A stretch of DNA of 64,000 bases. Source: Demequina capsici (GTDB taxonomy: Bacteria; Actinomycetota; Actinomycetes; Actinomycetales; Demequinaceae). Shown here one piece after another: positions 12,232 to 63,504 of this stretch (positions are counted from its first letter, which is position 1; the number at the start of each line of letters is the position of its first letter). The position numbers and the translations under genes are program-made. The stretch covers positions 186,001 to 250,000 of the forward strand of contig NZ_CP134880.1 in assembly GCF_032102965.1 (NCBI RefSeq). Reading direction: 5' to 3'. The notes beneath the pieces are model-generated. The model made no database searches. It worked only from the letters and a program-made list of their open reading frames with translations, and was not told the origin of the DNA.

Positions 12232-12456
12232 ATGACCGCCACCCCCAGCATCGACATCACCGTCCAGGGCATGACCTGCGAAGGCTGCGCCGGCAAGGTC
12301 CGCAGGGCGCTCACCGCGACCGACGGAATCGCGGGCGCGGAGATCGACGTCGCGAGCGGAGCCGTCAAGGTGCTCACCGACGGCACCGTTCCCGCCGACG
12401 ACCTGGAGTTCGCCATCGACGAGGCCGTCACCGGGGCCGGCTACACCGTCGCCTGA
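12232..12456 (+). CDS. copZ: Copper chaperone CopZ-like protein
   Basis: The 74-residue single HMA domain has the metal site GMTCEGCAGKVRRALT and the typical C-terminal DEAVTGAGYTVA. GAGGAG precedes the ATG. Such proteins carry Cu(I) to the exporter CopA. It is the first gene after the MerR-type promoter, with copA following after 86 bp and its own ribosome binding site, so the pair forms the copper efflux operon. Confidence 0.93.
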   Translation: MTATPSIDITVQGMTCEGCAGKVRRALTATDGIAGAEIDVASGAVKVLTDGTVPADDLEFAIDEAVTGAGYTVA

Positions 12457-12542
12457 CCCGCACCGTCGCCTGACCTGCCCCGTCGCCTCACCCACGCCGG
12501 TCCCGCCGGAGGTCGAGGCGAGTCTCGTCCGAGGAGCCATCC

Positions 12543-41480: not shown

Positions 41481-41608
41481 CGCACACCGACCCACGCACC
41501 CGCTGCGCACACCCACCCACGCACACCCACCCACGCACCCGCTGCGCACACCCACCCACGCACACCCACCCACGCACCCGCCGCGCACACCCACCCACGC
41601 ACCCGCTG
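41481..41608. repeat. Compound tandem repeat array in the gap between lacI and acetylxylan esterase
   Basis: The array is built from a 14-mer CGCACACCCACCCA and an 11-mer CGCACCCGCTG, arranged as 14+11, 14+14+11, 14+14+11, 14+11 (units of 25, 39, 39 and 25 bp). Two small variants occur (CGCACACCGACCCA in the first unit, GCCG for GCTG in the third). The C-rich strand is the given strand. It lies in a 394-bp gene-free stretch upstream of lacI and downstream of the esterase stop. No conserved protein is encoded. The preceding 41441-41480 has degenerate CGCACAAC pieces of the same kind. Confidence 0.9.
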
Positions 41609-41670
41609 CAGATCGACAATCGTGACGCATGCGGGCCGCGAGCGGCCCACGTGTCGACGATCGTGACGCA
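41609..41670. repeat. Two copies of a motif shared with the 50.2-kb repeat region
   Basis: CAGATCGACAATCGTGACGC (41609-41628) directly follows the tandem array. A second version, GTGTCGACGATCGTGACGC, lies at 41651-41669. The first is the exact reverse complement of 50235-50254, next to another G/C-rich array 8.6 kb away. Function is unknown; it may be the conserved end of an intergenic repeat family. Confidence 0.85.
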
Positions 41671-41680
41671 GACCGTGCAG

Positions 41681-42676
41681 CTAGACGGCTGCGGCGAGAA
41701 GCTCCGTGACGAACTCGAGCTGCTTCTTGATCTGGAAGGCGCCGCCGCCCTCGTGGTTGTTGTAGGGGTATACCTCGATGCGCTTGTCGGGCTCGCCGCC
41801 CAGCTCTCCGTAGCGGTGGAACGCCGCATACGTGGTCGACGGCGGGCAGGTCGTGTCCCGCAGCGCCACCGACCACAGCGCCCGCGCGCGCCCCCGGCGC
41901 GCATGGTTGGCCGCGTCGACGTAGCTCAACGTGTGGAAGACCTGCTCCACCCGGTCCCGGTGCGCAGCCAGGTAGCTGCGCACTTCGTCGTACGGGTCGC
42001 CGTCCACGAGGTCCACCGCACGTCGGATATGGCACAGGAACGCCACATCAGCCATCAGCGCGATCGGGGCGTCGTGGAGACCCACCGCCGCGATCGCCAG
42101 CGCCCCACCCTGCGAGGCTCCCGCGACGATGATGCGCGACGCCTCCACGCCCGGAAGCGCGGCAGCGGCGTCGATCGCCAGCGCCGCGTCGGTCATCGCC
42201 CGGACGTAGTAGTGCTCGTGCGGGTCCAGGATCCCGCGTGTCAGGAAGCCCGAATGCGCGGGGCCTGAACCGTGGGGATCGGGGGTGTCGCCCACGCTGC
42301 CCCAGCCGGCCGCTCCCTGACCGCGCGTGTCGACCATGAGGTGCGCGACGCCGACGGAGGGCCACAAGGTGTGCTCGACGGGAAGTCCGCGACCGCCCCC
42401 GTAGCCCTGGAACTGGACGACGACCGGGAGCGGTCCCGCCGCCTCGGCCGGTGCCGAGAGCCACGCCTTGATCGGCTCGCCGCCGTACCCGCTGAACGAC
42501 ACGTCGTGGACCTTCACCCGCGCGAGACCTGTGTCCACGGGGACGGCCACGGGAGCGCGAGCCGCCGAGCGTGATTGCGCGAGCGTCGTCGACCAGAACG
42601 CGTCGAAGTCGTCCGGCTCGGCGATCTCGGGGCGGTAGGCCTCGAGCTCCTCGAGCGGGAGGTCGTACAGGGCCAC
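41681..42676 (-). CDS. axe: Acetylxylan esterase (AXE1 / cephalosporin-C deacetylase family)
   Basis: GTG 42676 lies 1 nt after the rhodanese stop, so translation is coupled; the product has 331 residues. The alpha/beta-hydrolase triad is Ser188 (GASQGG), Asp274 (LRDTTCPPST) and His308 (NNHEGGG). The GYGGxxG oxyanion loop (90-95) and DTRGQG are characteristic of AXE1 enzymes, which remove acetyl groups from xylo-oligosaccharides or other small acetyl esters. No signal peptide is seen, so it acts in the cytoplasm. It is next to the alpha-xylosidase locus but is separated from it by the repeat region. Confidence 0.92.
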   Translation of the reverse strand: MALYDLPLEELEAYRPEIAEPDDFDAFWSTTLAQSRSAARAPVAVPVDTGLARVKVHDVSFSGYGGEPIKAWLSAPAEAAGPLPVVVQFQGYGGGRGLPVEHTLWPSVGVAHLMVDTRGQGAAGWGSVGDTPDPHGSGPAHSGFLTRGILDPHEHYYVRAMTDAALAIDAAAALPGVEASRIIVAGASQGGALAIAAVGLHDAPIALMADVAFLCHIRRAVDLVDGDPYDEVRSYLAAHRDRVEQVFHTLSYVDAANHARRGRARALWSVALRDTTCPPSTTYAAFHRYGELGGEPDKRIEVYPYNNHEGGGAFQIKKQLEFVTELLAAAV

Positions 42677-42677
42677 C

Positions 42678-43097
42678 TCAGCCCTGGCGCCAGGGAAGGC
42701 CCAAGGCCTTCCAGCCGGCCGCCCCGCCACGGTGGCCGGACGCGTCGGGCGCGCCCTCGAACCCGTCGAGGATGTTGTAGGCAGGGCCGATGCCGGCCTC
42801 CGTCGCCGCCTTCGCCGCGCCGATCGAGCGCTGGCCTGAACGGCAGAGGAAGACCACGGGACGCTCCTCGCCCGGCGTCAGCCCCGCCTCGAGGAGCTGC
42901 TGCATGAAGGTCGCGTTGGGGGCGCCGCCCGGCCACGTCACCCACTCGATGAACACCGGCGGCGCGCCCGCGGGAACCGTGTCAGGGACGCCGACCCACT
43001 GCCACTCGGCGGCGGTGCGCACATCCACCAGGATCGCGCCGTCCTCGACCATCTCCCATGCCTGCTGCGGCGTGATGTCGCCTGCATACTCCGTCAT
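42678..43097 (-). CDS. Rhodanese-like domain protein
   Basis: ATG 43097 follows GGGAG; the product is 139 residues. The single rhodanese domain has ITPQQAWEMVEDGAILVDVRTAAEW at the N-terminus and the active loop VFLCRSGQRS with Cys85. The fold transfers sulfane sulfur; the acceptor is unknown. The insert VPAGAPPVFIEWVTWPGGAPNATF is seen in a subgroup of bacterial rhodaneses. It is coupled to the esterase gene downstream and lies 65 bp from the exporter operon upstream. The longer reading frame on this strand is only readthrough upstream of the start. Confidence 0.92.
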   Translation of the reverse strand: MTEYAGDITPQQAWEMVEDGAILVDVRTAAEWQWVGVPDTVPAGAPPVFIEWVTWPGGAPNATFMQQLLEAGLTPGEERPVVFLCRSGQRSIGAAKAATEAGIGPAYNILDGFEGAPDASGHRGGAAGWKALGLPWRQG

Positions 43098-43162
43098 CGC
43101 GAACTCCCTCGTCCCTGCGGTCGCCGCCCAGTCTAGGGCGGGACGAGGCACGGCGACCGTCC

Positions 43163-45331
43163 TCAGCCGCGCGTCCGCGTGAGCGAGCGGGCCGACGCAC
43201 GCGCGGTCGCCGCCACGACGAGGGCTCCGACCGCGATCCCCGCCAGGGCGATGGCGACGGTCTGCAGCAGCAACGGGACCGCGTGTCCCAGGTGCGTCAC
43301 AGCCCAGGCGGAGCCGAATGTCGACGATCCGGACACGGTGGCGTCGACAAGGCCGACGGGTCCGCTCCACGTCCCGCTCCAGTCCGTGCGCGTGAACAGC
43401 ACGAGCGCGGCCACGAGCCCCGTGAGTGCGCCGACGGCGACGGACGTCGCGAGGGGGAGCGCGAACTGCGCCGCGGCGGCGAGGCGCGCGTCGCTCCTGC
43501 TGAGCCCCAGTGCCGCCTGAGCGTCGGCCTCGGCGCGCGCACCTGCCCGCGCGACGAGCTGCGCCGCGAGCGCCGCGAGGCTGAGCACGCCGAAGGTGAC
43601 GATGATGACCGCCTGCGAGTACTGCGTCGTCCCGTCGCCCCAGCCCCAGCTCGCCGCCACCGCGAACGGTCCAGGTGCGGCCTCCCCGGGGCCGACGTCG
43701 ATCCACTCGGCGAGCGCGAGCCACGTCATCGACCCGACCGCCACCGCGGATGCCACCGCGAGCACCGACGCCGGTCCGGAGGCCTGCCGGGGGCGGTCGG
43801 CGAGCGCCGACGACGCGGCGATCTGCCAGGGACGGCTGCCGCGCGCGAGTCGCCGCGTCGTGAACGCGGTCGCGCGCCGAGAGAGCTCGACGAGCAGCAT
43901 CGTCGACGTGACGGCAGCGCCGACGCCCACGAGGACCGCCGCGATCCTGAAGCCGCCGGAAGCGTCGATGCCTCCTCCCCAGGCACCGTTCCCGACGATC
44001 ACCTTCACGGAGAGCACGGTGAACAGCGCGAGCGGACCCCAGATCACCAGCAGCGGCCACAGCGGAACGGTGCGGGATACCTGCGCCTCGGACACGGGCG
44101 TCACCGGCTTGAGCGCGGCTGCGGGTGCGACGCGGGCCGCCCAGAAGGCCGGCACTGCTCCGAGGATCCCTGCGACGAGCACCGCCGCAGCGCTCAGGAC
44201 GCACGCCACCCACCAGGGAACGCTCGGCGCGGCCCACGCCAGCGCGTCGGGGTTCGCGGCGACCACCCGCGCCCAGTCGGACGCGAACAGTGCGTAGGCC
44301 GTGCCCACGCCCACAGCGGCCGCGAGCGTCCCGATCGCGCCGACCTCCAGCAGCGTCGCGCCGACGATCGACGACCGTCTCGCTCCGAGCACCCGTGCGG
44401 TGGCCACCCAACGGGTGCGCACCTGCGCCTGGGCACGCCCCACCGCGAAAGCCATGCCGATCAGCCCGAGGACGAGCACCCCGGCAGCGATGGCGAGCAC
44501 GACCGCCGCCGGGTCGATCGCGGTGCCGTAGTAGTCGAGGTGAGCGGCAGAGGTGCTGAACAGGGCAAGCGCCGGCGTCTGCCGATCCGCGGAGACGGAC
44601 ACCTGCCACATGAGGGTGCCGTTGTGGGAACCGGCGGCCGCGCTCGCCGCCTGGGCCGTCGCCGCGAGCGCCGGCACGGAGTCCCAGCCGACGATGCCGT
44701 CGTACAGGTAGGTGCCGTAGCGGCTCGGAAGGGACGTGCGGAGCGTGCCGCTCACGATCAGCCGGCCGAGCTCGATGTTCGAGTCCTGCTCCCCATCCCA
44801 CGCGATCGTGCTGAGCTGGACCGCATCGCCGATGCTCACGTGGTTGGCGTCCGCCCAGTGCGCGTCGACGGCGATCTCGCCTTCGCGCGGGGCGTCGCCG
44901 GTCAGCAGCAGCGCACCCCAGCTCACGTCCCCGGTCATCGCCGCGACGTTCACGAGCGCCGCATCCCACGGGTAGCCGCCCGCTGCGGCGAGCTCCGTCG
45001 GAGTCGAGACGAACCCCCTGATATCGAGAGGCATCACCGCCGTGGCATGCGAGCCGTCACCCGTCGAATCGGCCATGGCTCGGCGCACCTGCTCCCACGT
45101 GAGCTGCGCGGGGTCGTCGGCGGCGTCGGCCTCGTAGAAGATCGCCGACCCCCGCCACGCACCGTCCAGCCCGTACGCGGAGCGCACGCCCGCGCTGACC
45201 CCCACCTGGCTCTGCATCGCCACGAACGCCGCATAGGACGCGAGCCCCACGGCCAGCGTCAGCAGCGCCGTCGTCCAGATCACGTACGCGCGATGCGACC
45301 GGAGCTGCTCGCGCATCAGCTGGCGGATCAT
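43163..45331 (-). CDS. FtsX-like ABC transporter permease (third permease of the exporter)
   Basis: The start is ATG 45331, overlapping the preceding stop (ATGA); the product is 722 residues. After a first helix (TTALLTLAVGLASYAAFVAM) comes an extracytoplasmic domain of about 210 residues, then FtsX-type helices (VLVLGLIGMAFAVGRAQAQVRTRW, and a second set near the C-terminus). This is the MacB/LolC-like architecture of mechanotransmission exporters. The first about 30 residues and the following VGRAQAQ[VA]RTRWVATARVLGARRS block are nearly the same as in the next gene, so the two arose by duplication. It is the last gene of the operon. Confidence 0.87.
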   Translation of the reverse strand: MIRQLMREQLRSHRAYVIWTTALLTLAVGLASYAAFVAMQSQVGVSAGVRSAYGLDGAWRGSAIFYEADAADDPAQLTWEQVRRAMADSTGDGSHATAVMPLDIRGFVSTPTELAAAGGYPWDAALVNVAAMTGDVSWGALLLTGDAPREGEIAVDAHWADANHVSIGDAVQLSTIAWDGEQDSNIELGRLIVSGTLRTSLPSRYGTYLYDGIVGWDSVPALAATAQAASAAAGSHNGTLMWQVSVSADRQTPALALFSTSAAHLDYYGTAIDPAAVVLAIAAGVLVLGLIGMAFAVGRAQAQVRTRWVATARVLGARRSSIVGATLLEVGAIGTLAAAVGVGTAYALFASDWARVVAANPDALAWAAPSVPWWVACVLSAAAVLVAGILGAVPAFWAARVAPAAALKPVTPVSEAQVSRTVPLWPLLVIWGPLALFTVLSVKVIVGNGAWGGGIDASGGFRIAAVLVGVGAAVTSTMLLVELSRRATAFTTRRLARGSRPWQIAASSALADRPRQASGPASVLAVASAVAVGSMTWLALAEWIDVGPGEAAPGPFAVAASWGWGDGTTQYSQAVIIVTFGVLSLAALAAQLVARAGARAEADAQAALGLSRSDARLAAAAQFALPLATSVAVGALTGLVAALVLFTRTDWSGTWSGPVGLVDATVSGSSTFGSAWAVTHLGHAVPLLLQTVAIALAGIAVGALVVAATARASARSLTRTRG

Positions 45332-47466
45332 GCCGCGATCCTTTCGACGAGGCGGGCGGGGTTGCGCGTGGTCAGCGCGGCGGCGGTCGCGCCGACGGCC
45401 ACGGACCCGAGCAGCACGAGCAGCGCGGCGAGCCCCGGGACCACGGTGTGCGACAGGTGCGTGAACGCCCACGCGGGCCCGAGCATGGTCTTGCTCGTGA
45501 CGTCGCCGGACTCGCTGTACGTGCGGGACTCGGTGCTGAACATCAGGCAGGCCGTCGCCGACCCGAGCGCGGCACCGACGACGACGCCGAGCGCGAGCGG
45601 GAGCCCGAACTGCACCGCGGATGCCAGGCGAGCGGCCCGCGCGTCGAGACCGAGCGCGGCGTGCGCCGTCGACTCTGCACGCGTGGCGTGGCGCCCCGCA
45701 GTGAATGCAGCCAACGCGACCAGCACCAGGAGGAACCCGACGATCGCGACCTCCACGAGCGTCGTCCTGTAGCCCACGAACCGTCCGGCGCCGAAGGCGA
45801 ACGGGCCGAGCGCCTCCCACTGCGGGTCGACGGATACGTACGGCTCCCAGGTCTCGCTCCACGCGGTCAGGGAGATCGCCACGACCGTGTACATCGCCAC
45901 GCCCGACGCCAACGCCAGGACCGCCGCCGGGGCCGACGCGAGCGCAGGGCGACCGCGAAGCGCGGCGCCGGCCGTGAGCATCCACGGCGTCGAGCTGCGC
46001 TCCAAGGCGACCGCCGTCGCGCGTACCACGCGCCGCATGATCTCGACGATCATCGCGAGGGAGGTCACTCCGGCCGCCAGCAGCACGATCCACCGCAGGA
46101 GGCCGTATGCGCTGGAGTAGTGGAGCGCGACGCCCCAGCCTGTGTCGCCGGGAAGTCCCTGCACCATCATGAGCACCACCACGAAGGCAAGCCCCCAGAC
46201 CACCAGCAGCGGCCACACCCGCACCGTCCTCGAGAACTGTGCGGACGTCGCCGGGGTCTCCGGCTTGAGTGCGGCGGCGGGCGTGACGCGTGCCGCCCAG
46301 AAGGCGGGCACGGCACCCATGATCGCGGCGATGACGAGGCTCACGGCCACCATGCCGAGCGGATACCAGGCGGCGACGGCGACCGACGAGGGGATCAGCG
46401 CGTCTGGATTCGCCGACAGCACACCTGCCCACTCGATGGCGAGCGCCGCATACGCGATCCCCGCTCCGAGCACACCCGCGACGAGGCCCACCGCCGCCGT
46501 CTCCACCGCGGTCGCGGCGACCACGGTGGAGCGCCTCGCTCCCAGCACGCGGGCGGTCGCCACCCACTGGGTGCGCGCCTGCGCCTGCGCCCGGCCGACT
46601 GCGAAGGCCATGCCGATCAGCCCGATCACGAGCACTCCGGCCGCGATCAGCAGGTAGCTGCTCGGTCCCCCATGGTCGAGGAAGTAGTCGTGCCCCACCT
46701 GATCAGCGTCGAGCGCCGCGAGCGAGGGCGTCTCGCGCTGCGCGGAGAGCATCACCATGTCCAGCGACTCGTCTGGGTCGGCGCCTCGGGCGGCATACGC
46801 CCGCTGCTCCAGGTCGAACACGCTGTCCCAGCCGATCAGCGTCTGCTCCTGCCAGGCCGCATAGCCCCCGGAGGCAGTGGTCCGAAGCAGGCCGCTGACG
46901 GTGACGGTGCCGAGCGACACGACGTCCCTGCCGATGCCGAAGGTCGCGACGGTGACGGGGTCGCCCGCCGCGACCCCGTTGTCGGCGGCCCATTGGGCGT
47001 CGACCGCGACCTGGCCTGCGCCCGGGGCGTCTCCCGATTCAAGGAGGGTGGGCCAGTCGACCTCGCCCGTGGTGGCGCTGGCTCCGTACACGGGGTGAGT
47101 CTCGGCCTGGTCCAGCCAGTCGGCGGGCGACACACCGGCGGGGATGACGGTGAGGCCCGTGTCGGTGATCGCCGCGATGCCCGCGCCCTCGGCGTTCGCC
47201 TCCCCCAGAAGGGCGTTGAGCTCAGCGGGCGTCACGGTGAGGCACGCACAGTCCACCGACGGATCGCCCTGGGACACGGCGACCGCTGTGTTCCACCCGC
47301 CGTCCATGCCATGCGCCGAGGCCACGTGCTGCACGACGGCCCCCTGCTGCACGCCCACGAAGGCTGCGAACGAGGCGAACCCGATCGCCAGCGTCAGCAG
47401 CGCCGTGGTCCAGATCACGTAGGCGCGGTGCGACCGGAGCTGCTCGCCCACGAGCTGGCGGATCAT
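45328..47466 (-). CDS. FtsX-like ABC transporter permease (second permease of the exporter)
   Basis: The 712-residue protein has the same layout as its downstream paralogue: N-terminal helix (TTALLTLAIGFASFAAFVGV), a large extracytoplasmic domain (about residues 35-270), then FtsX helices including LIGMAFAVGRAQAQARTQWVATARVLGARRSTVVAA. It overlaps the genes on both sides by 4 nt. With the ATPase at 49304 it should form an exporter of peptides, antibiotics or lipids, or a signalling complex with a two-component system. The extracytoplasmic domains of the two paralogues differ much more than their membrane parts. Confidence 0.87.
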   Translation of the reverse strand: MIRQLVGEQLRSHRAYVIWTTALLTLAIGFASFAAFVGVQQGAVVQHVASAHGMDGGWNTAVAVSQGDPSVDCACLTVTPAELNALLGEANAEGAGIAAITDTGLTVIPAGVSPADWLDQAETHPVYGASATTGEVDWPTLLESGDAPGAGQVAVDAQWAADNGVAAGDPVTVATFGIGRDVVSLGTVTVSGLLRTTASGGYAAWQEQTLIGWDSVFDLEQRAYAARGADPDESLDMVMLSAQRETPSLAALDADQVGHDYFLDHGGPSSYLLIAAGVLVIGLIGMAFAVGRAQAQARTQWVATARVLGARRSTVVAATAVETAAVGLVAGVLGAGIAYAALAIEWAGVLSANPDALIPSSVAVAAWYPLGMVAVSLVIAAIMGAVPAFWAARVTPAAALKPETPATSAQFSRTVRVWPLLVVWGLAFVVVLMMVQGLPGDTGWGVALHYSSAYGLLRWIVLLAAGVTSLAMIVEIMRRVVRATAVALERSSTPWMLTAGAALRGRPALASAPAAVLALASGVAMYTVVAISLTAWSETWEPYVSVDPQWEALGPFAFGAGRFVGYRTTLVEVAIVGFLLVLVALAAFTAGRHATRAESTAHAALGLDARAARLASAVQFGLPLALGVVVGAALGSATACLMFSTESRTYSESGDVTSKTMLGPAWAFTHLSHTVVPGLAALLVLLGSVAVGATAAALTTRNPARLVERIAA

Positions 47467-49307
47467 CGCCTCGCCATCCCTTCGCGCAGCGCCTCGGAGG
47501 GCGTCTCGAGGTGGACTGCGCTCGCGACCGCCGCAGTGAGCACGGCATACGACGCACAGATCAGGAGGACGACGGGTATCACGGCTGTCCAGTTGACCGA
47601 TCCGAGCGCGGTGCCCACGTAGGAGTCGGTGATGATCCCGTTCAGGGAGAGGCGTGCGCGGTCGAGCATCGTCAGGAGTGCACGAGCGGTGACACCCGTG
47701 GCGGTCCCGACCAGCGTCGCGATGACGGCGAGCGTCGCTCCCTCGACGACCACCGCGATCCTGACCGTGCGGGCGGACGAGCCCAGCGCGGTGAGGGTCG
47801 CAGCGTTGCGACCGCCAGCCCGCACCGCCGCGAACGCCAGAGGTGACAGTCCGACGAGGATCAGCAGTGACCAGAGGATCCAGGTCCCGGCGGCCGGGTC
47901 CTCATACGAGTAGCCGCCGTCCTGCCCGGCGACGTAGTGGATGCCCTGCCCTGTGACGCCCTCCACCCCGGTCATCACCTCCGACTCGATCGCCGCGCGG
48001 TCGGCCGCTGGCGACACGTAGACGAAGTAGGCGTGCCCCACGGGAGGCAGGTTCACTCGGGCCGAGTTCACGTAGGCGACGCCGTACCCGACCAGGGGCA
48101 CGACGGCCTCCGGCCGGTACGTGAACGGGTCCTTCGGGTCGACTGTGATCTGCGCCGTGCTGGGCGCGTTCGCGACGGCGGCGGTCGGGTGGGTCTGCAG
48201 CGCCAGCGCCACCTCGTCGTCGAGGCCGACGAGTTGGGCTGGGTCCACCGCGATGATCTCCACGGCGGGGTTCTCGCCGACGATGTCCGCCGCTATGACG
48301 TGAGCGACCCCGTCGATCGCGAGCAGGCGGTCGGTGACGGCGCCCGAGGCCGTCGGGTACTCGGTGTACACGAACGCGAACGCGTCCGAATGGCGGACGC
48401 CCGTCTGGACGGAGGAGAGCAGGCCGACCAGGAAGGCGAGCGCGCCGATCGCCATGACGACCCGTCCCGTCGCCTTCGTCGGGTCGGTTGCGCGAGTGCG
48501 CAGCACGGCGGCGAGCTCGATGGATCCGGCCCGGTCCGCGAGCCTCGTCGTCGCGCCGAGCGCGTGGATGGCGAGCGTCGTCGCCCACGGGAGGACCGCC
48601 GTCAGCGCGAGCCCGCAGGCCGCGACCCACGCCACGACGTAGGCCACGTCGGAAACGGTCGCCGCGGTTGCCGAAGGGTCGGCGTAGTCGCCCCCATGTG
48701 AGGCCGCGATCCCGACGATCACCCCGGCCGACGCGGAGAGCGCCCCGGTCGCAGCGATCGCCAGGCGGCCGATGCGAGGTGGTCGGTACGGCTCCAGGCC
48801 CGCACGCCGCTGCTCGACCGGCGACCGTCCAGCGCGCCGCGCGGCGACGGCATGGGCGATCGCCAGTGCGACGGTGCCCATCGCGGCCTCGACCGCTCGC
48901 GTTGCCCACGCGTCGGTGCGGGTGCTGAACCAGGGCCAGCCGTGGGTCATCTCCAGGAACAGGTGGGCCGCTCCGGCGAGGATGAAGGCTGCGCCTGTGG
49001 CGATGGCGCCATCCCGCAGGCCTGCGAGCACGGTGCGCCTCATGGACGTCGCCGCAGTCTCGCCGAGCGCGGCGCGGGTCGCGCGCTCGTCGGAGCCCTG
49101 CGACCTCACCCCGAGCATCGCAGTCAGGATCAAGGTGAGCAGCGCTGTGGGGATCGCGAGGTAGATGACGAGGAAGCCGACCCGGTCGAAGCCCATCGCC
49201 GAGTCGCTGTAGAACACCTCGCCGTACGTGCGCAGATCCCAGGGGACCGTGATCACCATGAGCGCCGCGGACGCGATGCCTGCGACGGCGGCGGCAGGTG
49301 CCCTCAT
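47463..49307 (-). CDS. FtsX-like ABC transporter permease (first permease of the exporter)
   Basis: This 614-residue membrane protein differs from the two following paralogues. It begins with a helix and a short loop (VITVPWDLRTYGEVFYSDSAMGFDRVGFLVIYL), then LTLILTAMLGVRSQGSDERATRAALGETAATSMRRTVLAGLRDG, the cytoplasmic coupling segment of FtsX-type permeases. A second extracytoplasmic domain (about 300-470) and a final FtsX block near SLLILVGLSPLAFAAVRAGGRNAATLTALGSSARTVRIAVVVEGATL follow. It overlaps the ATPase gene and the next permease gene by 4 nt each. It is the first of three permeases served by a single ATPase. Confidence 0.84.
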   Translation of the reverse strand: MRAPAAAVAGIASAALMVITVPWDLRTYGEVFYSDSAMGFDRVGFLVIYLAIPTALLTLILTAMLGVRSQGSDERATRAALGETAATSMRRTVLAGLRDGAIATGAAFILAGAAHLFLEMTHGWPWFSTRTDAWATRAVEAAMGTVALAIAHAVAARRAGRSPVEQRRAGLEPYRPPRIGRLAIAATGALSASAGVIVGIAASHGGDYADPSATAATVSDVAYVVAWVAACGLALTAVLPWATTLAIHALGATTRLADRAGSIELAAVLRTRATDPTKATGRVVMAIGALAFLVGLLSSVQTGVRHSDAFAFVYTEYPTASGAVTDRLLAIDGVAHVIAADIVGENPAVEIIAVDPAQLVGLDDEVALALQTHPTAAVANAPSTAQITVDPKDPFTYRPEAVVPLVGYGVAYVNSARVNLPPVGHAYFVYVSPAADRAAIESEVMTGVEGVTGQGIHYVAGQDGGYSYEDPAAGTWILWSLLILVGLSPLAFAAVRAGGRNAATLTALGSSARTVRIAVVVEGATLAVIATLVGTATGVTARALLTMLDRARLSLNGIITDSYVGTALGSVNWTAVIPVVLLICASYAVLTAAVASAVHLETPSEALREGMARR

Positions 49308-50092
49308 CGCTCCACCCCCGCGAGCGCGTCCAGCCCGGCGAGCACCGCGTCGGGAGTGGGGTCCGTGACGTGGCCGGCGACCTTGCCGTCGGCGAAGAGG
49401 AGCACCTGGCCCGCGTATGACGCCGCAGTTGGATCGTGCGTGACCATGACCACCGACTGGCCCAGCTCACGGCATGAGACCCGCAGATGGGCGAGCACCT
49501 CGGCGCTCGCATGCGTGTCCAGGTTGCCGGTCGGTTCGTCGGCCAGGACCACACGAGGCCGGGTGATCAGCGCGCGGGCGATGGCGACCCGCTGTTGCTG
49601 ACCACCCGACATCTCGTACGGGCGGCGATCCAGCTCGCGGCCGATGCCGAGCATCTGCACGAGCGCGTCCAGCCATTCAGGGTCCTGCGGCAGTCCGTTG
49701 AGGCGCAGCGGCAGCACGATGTTGTCGCGCGCGCTCATGGTCTGCATCAGGTTGAAGCCCTGGAAGACGAAGCCGATGATCCGACCCCGCACCTTCGATA
49801 GCTGCTTGTCCTTCATGGCCGTGATCTCGTCGTCCCCGACCCAGACCTGACCGGAGTCCGGCCGGTCGAGCCCGGCGAGCAGGTGCACCAGAGTCGTCTT
49901 GCCTGAGCCGGACGGCCCCATGACGGCGGTGAGCACCCCGGCCGGGATGTCGAGGTCGACGTGATCGACCGCAGTGACGGTCGACGCGCCGCTCCCGTAC
50001 GCCTTGGCCAGCCCCCTGGACCTGAGCGCGAGCGGCGCGTCGACCGGCGACGCGTGTCGCGCCGCCGAGGATTCCCCCGAATTCCCCTTCAT
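49304..50092 (-). CDS. ABC transporter ATP-binding protein (MacB/LolD-like)
   Basis: ATG 50092 is preceded by a -10 box 7 nt upstream and gives 262 residues. The ATPase has Walker A GPSGSGKTT, Q-loop FVFQGFNLMQTMSARDNIVLPL, signature MSGGQQQRVAIARAL, Walker B VVLADEPTGNLD and the switch His in VTHDP. The LVHLLAGLDRPDSG and FNLMQT patterns are typical of the MacB/LolD group that drives FtsX-like permeases. The first about 30 residues (MKGNSGESSAARHASPVDAP) are a low-complexity extension. It starts the four-gene exporter operon. Confidence 0.93.
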   Translation of the reverse strand: MKGNSGESSAARHASPVDAPLALRSRGLAKAYGSGASTVTAVDHVDLDIPAGVLTAVMGPSGSGKTTLVHLLAGLDRPDSGQVWVGDDEITAMKDKQLSKVRGRIIGFVFQGFNLMQTMSARDNIVLPLRLNGLPQDPEWLDALVQMLGIGRELDRRPYEMSGGQQQRVAIARALITRPRVVLADEPTGNLDTHASAEVLAHLRVSCRELGQSVVMVTHDPTAASYAGQVLLFADGKVAGHVTDPTPDAVLAGLDALAGVER

Positions 50093-50099
50093 GCTGACG

Positions 50100-50105
50100 A
50101 CGCTA
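50100..50105 (-). promoter_or_regulatory. -10 box of the exporter operon, leaderless start
   Basis: On the minus strand TAGCGT is followed by 7 nt and the ATG of the ATPase gene. No -35 consensus is apparent at the proper distance, which would fit a promoter needing an activator bound upstream at 50151-50168. Confidence 0.5.
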
Positions 50106-50150
50106 TCCGTGGGCTTCCGTGGTCCGCGTCGGTCCACGGGATGGACCTGG

Positions 50151-50168
50151 GTCATACCCAGGTATGAC
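50151..50168. promoter_or_regulatory. Palindromic operator upstream of the exporter operon
   Basis: GTCATACCCAGGTATGAC is an inverted repeat of 8-bp arms with a 2-nt centre. It overlaps a second dyad, ACCTGGGT-CAT-ACCCAGGT (50145-50163). It lies 46 bp upstream of the -10 box, an activator position. The NarL-type response regulator encoded at 50653 is the obvious candidate to bind it. Confidence 0.7.
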
Positions 50169-50234
50169 GTGGGCGGCGTCGACGCCAGGCGACGGGGTGG
50201 ACCGGCGTGTGCGGGGGCGGTGGCCGACGCCTGG

Positions 50235-50534
50235 GCGTCACGATTGTCGATCTGTGGGCGTGCGCGAGGCTGGCGCCGTCACGAATGTCGATGTTTGGGG
50301 GGTAGAAGGCGATCCGCGGGGGTGGAGGGCGATCCGCGGGGGTGGGGGGCGATCCGCGGGGGTGGAGGGCGAGTGCGTGGCGCGGAAGGCGATCCGCGGG
50401 GGTGGAGGGCGAGTGCGTGGCGCGGAAGGCGATCCGCGGGGGTGGGGGGCGATCCGCGGGGCGAACGGGATCGATTGCTCGCGCGCGCAGGTCTCGCGAA
50501 CCCTCGCCCGCCTCAGATAGACGTTCGTGACGGC
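50235..50534. repeat. Intergenic element bounded by inverted copies of the shared motif
   Basis: GCGTCACGATTGTCGATCTG (50235-50254) at the left and CAGATAGACGTTCGTGACGGC (50514-50534) at the right are imperfect inverted copies. A third degenerate copy, GTCACGAATGTCGATGT (50278-50294), lies inside, just before the 20-bp array. The left end is the exact reverse complement of 41609-41628. No coding sequence is credible across 50093-50652. The 300-bp unit looks like a non-autonomous repeat element, but no target-site duplication was identified. Confidence 0.65.
50308..50467. repeat. 20-bp tandem repeat array with two alternating unit types
   Basis: Eight head-to-tail 20-mers start at 50308, 50328, 50348, 50368, 50388, 50408, 50428 and 50448. 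Type A is GGCGATCCGCGGGGGTGGAG, with a GGGG-ending variant in units 2 and 7. Type B, GGCGAGTGCGTGGCGCGGAA, is units 4 and 6. Unit 8 diverges in its last 7 bases. The order A, A', A, B, A, B, A', A'' suggests duplication of an A-B pair. Confidence 0.92.
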
Positions 50535-50592
50535 GAGACGGGGGTGGGCGCATCACGGATAGACAATAAAGACGCTTAGCGAGACCGCCGTT

Positions 50593-50640
50593 CGCCCACG
50601 ACGTCGCCCACGACGTCGCCCACGACGTCGCCCACGACGT
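50593..50640. repeat. 12-bp tandem repeat, four perfect copies
   Basis: CGCCCACGACGT is repeated four times without change, followed by a degenerate CGCGCTCGACGT. It ends 12 bp before the stop codon of the response regulator gene and so lies in its 3' untranslated region. Confidence 0.95.
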
Positions 50641-50652
50641 CGCGCTCGACGT

Positions 50653-60265: not shown

Positions 60266-61740
60266 CCTTGCTTCGTCGCGCGCGGCTCCTTCGCGGCGGT
60301 GTCGATGCGTGCACGTCCGCCGAGTCGGGGCGTGCGGCTCGGGTCGATCCGCCTTGGTGGGATCAGCCACACCCTGGTGCCGCGTGCCTCGATGCTCCAC
60401 CCGTCCCTGTGCACGTCGTGATGGCAGCGCACGCAGAGCAGCACGCCGTTGGAGAGGTCTGTGCGACCGGAGTCTCGCTCCCACCATCGGACGTGGTGGG
60501 CTTCGCACCAGTCGGGCGGCGCGTGGCACTTCGCACAACCTCCGTCGCGTTCGACGAGCGCGAGCCGTTGGGCCTGGGTGAACAGCCGTCGCCGGCGGCC
60601 CCAGTCGAGGATCTCGCCCTCGCCGCCGAGCACTGCGGGGATGACCTCAGCGTCGGCCGCGAGCCGGCGTGCGGTGGCCACGCTGACGGGTGTCGGCATG
60701 CCGTCGATGGCGGCCGTCCCTTCGCCGTTCGAAAGATCGTCGAGCGTGAGGCGCACGACCACAGTGGTCTTCACTCCTGCGTGGGTCGACTCGCAACCCT
60801 GCGCATGCCGTGCCAGCCAGGTGAGTGCGTCGGCACGGAGCTGACCGGCTGAGGGCGCGATCGCGACGCCTTGCCCACGGCTCCGCCGCTCGTCTCGAGC
60901 CATCTGAAAGGCGTTGCGGACGAACGCATCGATCATCGCGCGTACTGGCGCGGCGGCACCCGGGTCGAGGCGTGCGGTGAGCAGCATCGACCCGTCCGCT
61001 TCGTGCTTCATCGACAGGAATCGCTCGTGGTGCGCGCGTTCCTCGCGGCGCTCGAGCTCGCGCGGGTCCATGCGCGCTTCAGCGAAGGCGACCATGCGCC
61101 GCACCTGCGGAAGCGGGAGCCCGACAGCCTTGGTCACCATGTCGCGCTCGGCCTGCGCGAGGTCCTCGGGATCGACCGCGCGGACGACACGGTCCAAGGC
61201 CCCTGCCAGAAGCGCACCTGCGTCGACCGAGAGGTGCCCGCGCGAGAGCGCCTCTGCCAGGAAAGGGAGGATCGGCGCTGCGTCGTGGTTCGCGCGGTCG
61301 CCGTCGTGTTGCCGGCTCGCGGCACCAGGATCGTCGGCCCGGTCACCGGCCCGGTCACCCGCCCGGTCATCTGCCGCGTCGCTGGCCCCGACCTCGGTCC
61401 CGGCCAAGGCTCGTCTCTGGGCACGTGCGGCGTCGGCCACGACCTTGCCCACGCGCGCGAGTCGTCCTGCCTCCGCCGTCGTTCCACCGGAGACCGACGC
61501 GACGAGAGCGTCGGGCGAGCGGAATCCCTCCCGCCGCGCCAGCTCGACCGCGCCGTGGGTCGGCTTCGAGCGGCGGGTCACCTCTGCTGCGAGGCGGGCC
61601 GCGACCACGTCCCATTCGCGGCGCACGGCGAAGACCTCGCGTTGAAGCGCCAGGAGGTCGGCTCGAGGCAGTGACTGCGCCTCATCGGCGAGCGCGCGAA
61701 CGGCCGCGATCGCGGCGCGGACGTCGGTCAATTCGCTCAT
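60106..61740 (-). CDS. DUF222 (13E12-type) HNH endonuclease domain protein
   Basis: From ATG 61740 (MSELTDVRAAIAAV) the product has 544 residues. Residues about 10-300 are the helical DUF222 region (LARREGFRSPDALVASVSGGT, EARMDPRELERREERAHHERFL). A C-terminal HNH motif follows: CAKCHAPPDWCEAHHVRWWERD, then LSNGVLLCVRCHHDVHRDGW with paired zinc cysteines. Such genes are scattered in many copies in actinobacteria, and their role is debated. A Asp/Arg/Gly repeat (AGDRAGDRADD) lies near residue 135. The last about 55 residues are low-complexity and overlap the purL-linked SCP gene on the other strand. Confidence 0.88.
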   Translation of the reverse strand: MSELTDVRAAIAAVRALADEAQSLPRADLLALQREVFAVRREWDVVAARLAAEVTRRSKPTHGAVELARREGFRSPDALVASVSGGTTAEAGRLARVGKVVADAARAQRRALAGTEVGASDAADDRAGDRAGDRADDPGAASRQHDGDRANHDAAPILPFLAEALSRGHLSVDAGALLAGALDRVVRAVDPEDLAQAERDMVTKAVGLPLPQVRRMVAFAEARMDPRELERREERAHHERFLSMKHEADGSMLLTARLDPGAAAPVRAMIDAFVRNAFQMARDERRSRGQGVAIAPSAGQLRADALTWLARHAQGCESTHAGVKTTVVVRLTLDDLSNGEGTAAIDGMPTPVSVATARRLAADAEVIPAVLGGEGEILDWGRRRRLFTQAQRLALVERDGGCAKCHAPPDWCEAHHVRWWERDSGRTDLSNGVLLCVRCHHDVHRDGWSIEARGTRVWLIPPRRIDPSRTPRLGGRARIDTAAKEPRATKQGHTNGSSAVRSVRSPEACNRPSASASDHTSAPVASDNHVAASVSITAGGVPRV

Positions 61741-63057: not shown

Positions 63058-63135
63058 CCGTGTGGTTCGTCCGTGTGGTTCGTCCGCGTGGGACGCGCCC
63101 GCGCCGCCCTGTCCGTCACCGCGCAGACCCGACCG

Positions 63136-63504
63136 TTACAGCGCCGACCCGATCGCCATCCCAAGCGCTGCGGCCGCCACTCCCGCAACGACCATGCCCA
63201 GGCACTGTGCGGCGGCCAGCCCCCATTCGCCCGCGCGCATGAGCCGCACGGTCTCCACGAGTGCGGTGCTGAACGTGGAGTACCCGCCGGCGAAGCCGGT
63301 GCCGAGCACGGCGAGCACCGCATCGGGTGCCGAATGGGAGGAGACCACTCCCGCGAGCACGCCGAGGAACAGGCAGGCCGTGACGTTGACGACGAACGTG
63401 CCCCAGGGGAAGCGGCTGCGGTTCACGTGGCCGACGCCGGTGTCGGCCCAGTAGCGAGCCGCGCCTCCGAGGCCTCCGGCGATCGCGGTGAGCAGCAGCG
63501 TCAT
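63136..63504 (-). CDS. crcB: Fluoride channel CrcB/FluC, second copy
   Basis: ATG 63504 overlaps the TGA of the upstream crcB gene; the product is 122 residues with four transmembrane helices. The motifs GGLGGAARYW (N-terminus), WGTFVVNVTACLFLGVLAG and TGFAGGYSTFSTALVE are those of Fluc fluoride channels. Paired genes like these often encode heterodimeric channels. A 13-bp tandem direct repeat (GTGTGGTTCGTCC) lies between this stop and the GH6 gene. Confidence 0.94.
   Translation of the reverse strand: MTLLLTAIAGGLGGAARYWADTGVGHVNRSRFPWGTFVVNVTACLFLGVLAGVVSSHSAPDAVLAVLGTGFAGGYSTFSTALVETVRLMRAGEWGLAAAQCLGMVVAGVAAAALGMAIGSAL

Follow-up and report, generated by a model that had tools for sequence, protein, structure and literature searches.

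REP sequences (repetitive extragenic palindromes) and REPINs are short intergenic repeats, paired or palindromic, many of which stand without a gene while some bracket the gene of a DNA-processing enzyme, the REP-associated tyrosine transposase (RAYT, TnpA-REP), in arrangements called REPtrons (PMC3733652, PMC8266576). Their sites lie between convergent or same-direction genes, and several families occur per genome. In this work we describe a family of paired repeats in Demequina capsici that is alike in these respects. It was met at two intergenic places, sites A and B, of a stretch of 64,000 nucleotides (the window; C1:186001-250000 of the 3,083,245-base genome), for which a first-pass annotation had reported a shared 20-mer. 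We think it likely, though well short of certain, that a nuclease-linked mobile family, working like REP/RAYT with an unrelated enzyme, has REP-like members without a gene and that the window copies belong to these.

The differences from REP/RAYT concern both the enzyme and the repeat. The gene bracketed here encodes a predicted AbiEi-EDxHD nuclease (Pfam families MTES_1575 and DUF559) and not an HUH Y1 transposase, the window 20-mer contains no GTAG, and its unit is a direct pair with a phase of 41-42 bp and no hairpin. The system would work like REP/RAYT, but of the marks by which REP/RAYT is defined it lacks the HUH Y1 transposase in the bracketed genes scanned and, in the window family, the GTAG-tagged hairpin. 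Many intergenic copies, as in REP/RAYT, were found, at low copy number (eight clusters for the window family). A further difference is that all 44 genomes of the genus hold 3 to 11 matches each to PF18741, and a large frame of about 1,400 aa is often among these.

Other described systems share single traits with this one. The CGTC-tagged REPs are also intergenic, and the window motif read backwards contains CGTC. These REPs "apparently lack a dedicated transposase" and have stems of 8-9 bp and loops of 4-5 nt; the five phyla from which they are reported do not include Actinobacteria, and REP-like sequences without conserved tags are mentioned for M. tuberculosis (PMC3733652). The window pairs have no such stem. 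A homing gene lies within its own target; here, in contrast, the gene has a complete unit on either side, which would speak against such an insertion if the units are the cleavage target. The Vsr-like EDxHD homing endonuclease I-Bth0305I is alike in the fold of its catalytic domain, judged from a predicted model, and in dimerising on a target of nearly 60 bp (PMC3943268). AbiEi of the type IV toxin-antitoxin system AbiE, which binds a pair of 23-bp inverted repeats separated by 3 bp and bends the promoter (PMC7319586), is alike in N-terminal fold and in double inverted repeat geometry, whereas the AbiEi part here is fused to a nuclease and the sites are also found downstream and scattered. Miniature inverted-repeat transposable elements (MITEs), including one with an internal minisatellite (PMC4596501), are likewise gene-less with paired ends and internal arrays. 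The ends here are half-site pairs, however, and the gene-bearing partner encodes a nuclease instead of a transposase. Presence and absence at orthologous sites, by which insertion sequences (ISs) and MITEs are recognised, were observed here.

In the window, the 20-mer of site A recurs at site B as its exact reverse complement, and at up to three mismatches these two matches stand against a mean of 0.02 in shuffled sequence. The opposite orientation and the excess over chance that the first-pass annotation had claimed are therefore confirmed, as are the three degenerate copies it had named. A fourth copy, at site B (core TAGACAATAAAGACG), had been missed, and so had the spacing: the window copies are paired at 41-42 bp. 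The tandem arrays that were said to border the motif copies are the three top-scoring distinct arrays of the window. Neither site has a coding-like frame over it. For the gene-free gaps, given as about 390 and 560 bp, we obtained 394 bp from the frame list at site A and, at site B, 497 bp when the longest frame is taken and 560 bp with the ATG at 50092 as the start.

The motif is not restricted to the window. Its 17-base core, at up to two mismatches, has 23 matches in the genome whereas the reversed pattern has none. Twenty-one of these matches fall into eight clusters, A and B (sites A and B), D, E, F, G, H and I; the remaining two are single and lie within coding-like frames. A motif confined to the two sites, or occurring at random in coding sequence, is thus not what was found. 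In all 14 cases same-strand neighbours within the clusters are spaced by 41 or 42 bp, degenerate copies counted; the unit is a pair of direct half-sites with this phase rather than a single 20-mer. Clusters A, E and H consist of a ++ pair only. In D, F, G and I, plus copies are followed by minus copies. Cluster B has the order --, array, ++. By eye, the sequence between the copies is not conserved from cluster to cluster. The clusters span 0.23-2.23 Mb of the 3.08-Mb chromosome, and 24 of 28 tested places of three repeat families have no coding-like frame over them, the other four being single matches (cluster I and two second-family clusters near 671 and 832 kb were left out of this test). 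The window pairs do not fold beyond shuffled sequence (z from -1.05 to 0.86 in all five pairs folded), by which a hairpin or terminator is ruled out for the window motif. Two direct pairs lie upstream of tRNA genes: the pair of cluster E (L007:1459-1771) about 190 bp upstream of tRNA-Gln and, in the relative G003, a pair (L185:1501-1712) about 80 bp upstream of tRNA-Leu.

Cluster I differs from the others in that a single gene, about 940 bp long, stands between its plus pair and its minus pair (++ gene --). With the start codon that we chose, the frame crosses the core of the first minus copy and stops seven bases beyond it. The encoded protein (L028) matches MTES_1575 above the Pfam cut-off and DUF559 just below. 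A nucleoid or replication protein site, suggested at first for the motif, found no support (the orientation relative to the origin was not mapped); the candidate partner found instead is this AbiEi-EDxHD nuclease, whose gene the motif brackets. The genome contains five small genes with a PF04480 match (L024-L028, small DUF559/MTES_1575 genes), and the flanks of all five carry repeats whose sequence differs from gene to gene (Table 1).

Table 1. Half-sites and tandem arrays of sites A and B (positions in the window) and flank repeats of the five small nuclease genes of the genome
Feature	Position	Strand	Basis
Site A, half-site 1, exact 20-mer CAGATCGACAATCGTGACGC	41609-41628, core 41613-41627	+	motif match
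Site A, half-site 2, core TCGACGATCGTGACG, 1 mismatch, 41 bp past half-site 1	41650-41669, core 41654-41668	+	motif match
Tandem array beside site A pair, 39-bp unit, ~3 copies, score 230	41481-41602		array scan, relatives
Site B, minus pair, exact 20-mer reversed	50235-50254, core 50236-50250	-	motif match
Site B, minus pair, half-site 2, core TCGACATTCGTGACG, 1 mismatch, 41 bp on	50277-50291	-	motif match
Array between site B minus and plus pairs, 20/40-bp unit, scores 198 and 218	50298-50463		array scan
Site B, plus pair, half-site 1, core TAGACGTTCGTGACG, 3 mismatches	50518-50532	+	motif match
Site B, plus pair, degenerate half-site 2, core TAGACAATAAAGACG, 4 mismatches, 42 bp on	50560-50574	+	motif match
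Array TCGCCCACGACG, 5 copies, score 108, beside site B, reaching the response regulator frame; candidate part of the element	50592-50652		array scan
L027 gene, 65-nt inverted arms, CGGGTGAGTGAGTGTCG copies 41 bp apart			best flank score 45
L026 gene, 55-nt palindrome TGGCACGTG...			best flank score 27.5
L024 gene, 54-nt repeat with GAGCACAT...			best flank score 39
L025 gene, ACGAACCAATCTC, weak			best flank score 15
L028 gene (cluster I), window motif family			best flank score 18

The domain composition of the protein was judged from a predicted model of a homologue from a Demequina relative (L245; alignment of 23 sequences), which has a mean predicted local distance difference test score (pLDDT) of 90.7. 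Residues 9-196 of the model resemble the antitoxin AbiEi (6y8q; Z 10.6 over 180 residues, root mean square deviation (rmsd) 5.5). Residues 199-305 resemble the DUF559-like structure 3hrl (Z 12.9), the catalytic domain of I-Bth0305I (3r3p; Z 11.9 over 96 of 97 residues, rmsd 2.8) and Vsr (1cw0; Z 9.7). Six residues, E199, D231, E242, D244, H249 and D258, are invariant in all 18 diverse members compared, and the best AbiEi model of PADLOC matches 14 of 18 members. In a second set of 20 members (A2), Pfam assigned MTES_1575 and DUF559 to every one and AbiEi_4 to six, with no other family listed; MTES_1575 has been named as a Vsr-type restriction endonuclease (PMC3710099). The gene product is thus predicted to be an AbiEi-like domain fused to a Vsr/EDxHD nuclease that resembles the homing endonuclease I-Bth0305I.

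Gene-less copies are not a peculiarity of the window motif. The motif of the L027 gene, which constitutes a second direct family, has 51 matches in the genome at up to three mismatches, compared with eight for the reversed pattern; four of the 51 are the ends of the gene itself and 27 stand in same-strand neighbours, whose spacing is exactly 41 bp in 16 of 17 cases; as many as six copies follow one another in a run. For the L026 palindrome, eight matches to the half-site were found (reversed pattern: one), three of them at the ends of its own gene. Tandem arrays with a score of at least 80 that are not made of the motif accompany five of the 16 clusters of the two direct families (A, B, F, G and k608) but only one of 189 control segments of the window, a contrast that is indicative only since most of the control sequence is coding and some of the cluster segments exceed the control segments in length. 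The 41-bp arrays were also considered as CRISPR-like, but in them it is the unit itself that recurs (k609, k2398), and this reading was given up; no search for cas genes was made. In one place the second direct family brackets a GNAT acetyltransferase gene (L365:1459-2399; C1 608558-609496), with a ++ pair and six minus copies in 41-bp phase. It is possible that this gene is the cargo of a composite element.

Within the genus, there appear to be many families of the same kind as that of the window. The upstream and downstream flanks of 83 loci from 27 Demequina genomes were compared by their best ungapped match. This set comprised 60 small-frame loci among the PF18741 matches listed, 18 loci from G003, G047, G057 and G011 (five places already in the set were skipped) and the five genes of this genome; the frames of about 1,400 aa were left out, and 36 further named loci, which largely duplicate earlier ones, were kept out of the counts. 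A flank score of at least 20 was reached by 54 of the 83 loci, whereas it was reached by three of 821 mismatched flank pairs, by three of 800 random window places with the same geometry and by three of 297 placements at 29 ABC/regulator loci of the genus, all three at one locus. Beyond the genus, a full-length profile (A1) finds the family at E 1e-10 in 170 of 198 sampled genomes and 67 of 72 genera of the order. For the scan of the sequence collection an alignment of 18 sequences was too diverse, and a closer set of 20 was taken. Among 40 chosen loci outside the genus, 18 had a flank score of at least 20, compared with four of 781 in the control. Bracketing of such nuclease genes by their own flank repeats thus looks general.

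The flank repeats occur in two forms which go with the type of the protein, as defined by one alignment position and compared on the 62 loci with a flank score of at least 18. With the RQH, PQH or QQH type, none of 15 loci had a hairpin score above 10, and the best direct phase was 41-42 bp in nine of them. With the WQ type, 19 of 20 loci had a hairpin. One WQ-type element, for example, has hairpins with two arms of 25 to 31 bp around a 6-bp centre, and its two ends fold strongly (z -7.3 and -6.6). Best 12-mers, chosen locus by locus, were used for geometry only, since at some of the loci they are GC-rich noise. By eye, the half-sites of the window family (CAGATCGACAATCGTGACG) and of the second direct family have their first part in common and differ in the second. 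Mean repeat similarity is clearly higher only above about 65% protein identity, a range that contains 16 pairs.

Comparison with relatives supports the view of the first-pass annotation that this is a lineage-specific intergenic family with a conserved motif and varying array content, for which the genome matches, clusters, frames and arrays also speak. The exact motif was rejected as a genus-wide repeat: at up to one mismatch its core has zero to five matches per genome in 38 relatives, none of them paired among the matches listed. The exact 15-base core has one match in G017, the two exact-pattern matches of G057 that were inspected look coding by eye, and a frequent core match in relatives, TCGACAAGCGTGACG, is one which we take to be rpoB. 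Pairs of a variant, TCGACGATCCTGAC, were found in two of four near relatives, a few each in G003 and G047.

The places themselves are occupied in some species and empty in others. At site A in G003 the flanking matches, 233 bp apart here, abut, and both pair and array are absent. At site B, where the flanking matches are 468 and 483 bp apart here, the distance is 35 bp in G047 and 22 bp in G011, respectively; the 112 bp of G003 contain the minus pair only, and G057 has other DNA. The place of the cluster I gene is reduced in G005 and G022 to about 0.5 kb between flanking matches, compared with 1.5-1.6 kb. A stretch of 1,161 bp with the gene element of D. salsinemoris corresponds to 21 bp in G003 and 37 bp in D. 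capsici (G000), while in G057 a related gene is present at this place. As far as presence and absence between relatives can tell, the suggested mobile non-coding element is thus supported.

Two further observations concern these places. In G047 the site A place (L402) contains a lone 55-bp palindrome of the GGGACATGAGTGC type where D. capsici has the direct pair and the array; the place is taken by two unrelated repeat families in different species. In the site B orthologues of G016, G019, G020 and G008, about 2.0-2.8 kb of other DNA lies between the flanking matches, and the site B place may be an insertion hot spot.

A possible mechanism for the nuclease-linked family is as follows. The full element would be an AbiEi-like/EDxHD endonuclease gene with a unit of two half-sites at each end, the unit being direct copies 41-42 bp apart in the window family and a palindrome of 50-60 bp in other families. 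A distance of 41-42 bp is about four helical turns, and the half-sites would therefore lie on the same face of the helix. A protein dimer would be expected to bind the unit through its AbiEi parts; half-sites with a 41-42 bp spacing, or two arms about 25 bp long, would suit such a dimer in view of the geometry described for AbiEi and I-Bth0305I. The upstream unit may serve as an operator through which the protein represses its own promoter. The protein would then cleave or nick DNA at the units. When the break is repaired, the unit would be copied to intergenic places, either alone or together with the gene, and where such repair recurs it would leave local tandem arrays. Binding, cutting and movement by this enzyme, as well as the origin of the arrays, are what we infer here. 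The units at the stop codon and the scattered units are best explained as cleavage and spreading sites.

Several findings do not fit easily with this mechanism. In the window's own family we found no more than a single copy that bears a gene, and the layout of site B (-- array ++) is opposite to that of D, F, G and I. G003 and G047 hold TCGACGATCCTGAC pairs, yet no pair was found at their listed DUF559 loci. G003 (contig C4) also has at least seven places with palindromes related to the D. salsinemoris element, and its four listed small genes are not of the WQ type. At the place of the cluster I gene, G047 has a diverged homologue without flank repeat (score 12.5). No target-site duplication was recognised at the empty sites, where the flanks are too diverged to reveal a short one. 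In the flank test, 18 of the 83 genus loci scored below 16 and 22 of the 40 loci outside the genus below 20; at a cut-off of 16, 65 of the 83 passed, as did 26 of 821, 23 of 800 and 23 of 297 controls. Over all pairs, repeat similarity tracks protein identity weakly, with a Spearman coefficient of 0.14 that was reached by none of 999 permutations. In the Foldseek comparison, AbiEi alone had an E value below 0.001 (4.0e-5), and that of I-Bth0305I was 0.051.

The units could also be operators only. An AbiEi-like repressor would then act on its own upstream unit, and the downstream and scattered units would be further regulatory sites instead of element ends. The upstream unit does lie near the start codon, and the promoters of AbiEi and Rv2827c contain, as binding sites of these proteins, paired 23-bp inverted repeats with 3 or 13 bp between them (PMC7319586), much like the 25-bp arms 6 bp apart at one end here. 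However, in many loci the downstream unit overlaps or follows the stop codon, and several scattered units lie between convergent frames (e.g. D, E, G, k430, k504, h38 and h2670). A repressor, moreover, needs no invariant nuclease site, and a whole unit of gene plus repeats is missing from relatives. We therefore consider regulation alone improbable.

Alternatively, REP-like repeats could be spread by another enzyme, a RAYT or IS transposase, with the nuclease genes as passengers that sit in repeat-rich places or use the repeats as insertion sites in the manner of a free-standing homing endonuclease. Units in genomes where no cognate gene was listed would agree with this, as would the unrelated repeat families that occupy the site A place in different species. 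Yet each gene of this genome has flank repeats of another sequence, the form of flank repeats depends on the protein type, and the bracketed genes that were scanned match nuclease and AbiEi families but no transposase (a RAYT elsewhere in the genome was not searched for). This explanation seems to us slightly more doubtful still than regulation alone. That two GC-rich minisatellite regions share a 20-mer by chance or as a low-complexity artefact would suit the GC-rich arrays beside both sites, but with 0.02 matches expected, 23 genome matches against none for the reversed pattern and a fixed phase, it is next to impossible.

The nuclease-linked mobile family thus remains the reading we prefer. 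A wider proposal, which we believe about as much as we doubt it, is that every AbiEi-EDxHD nuclease has its own private code of paired half-sites and, by site-specific cleavage and repair, spreads both itself and copies without a gene, perhaps with neighbour genes as cargo; together these would form a new class of bacterial mobile element. We found no description of a link between such nuclease genes and repeat families in the open-licence literature, and we know of no dedicated enzyme for the REP-like repeats of Actinobacteria. Small repeat elements together with the bracketed gene of an unstudied DNA-cutting protein point to a kind of genomic parasite that we did not find described. If this is true, the REP-like repeats of Actinobacteria would gain a dedicated enzyme. 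Through the linkage of gene and repeat, such genes acquire a function that can be tested, and REP-like repeats a second route, unrelated in its enzyme to the first; movement, if demonstrated, would make the system a new class. In addition, dozens of natural protein/site pairs are on offer for studies of DNA recognition.

Two minor observations may be added. Many genomes of the genus also have a large protein (frames of about 1,300-2,250 aa) that matches MTES_1575. In the window, other short tandem arrays without the motif lie at 12444-12493, 61335-61388 and 63058-63152 (scores 59-79).

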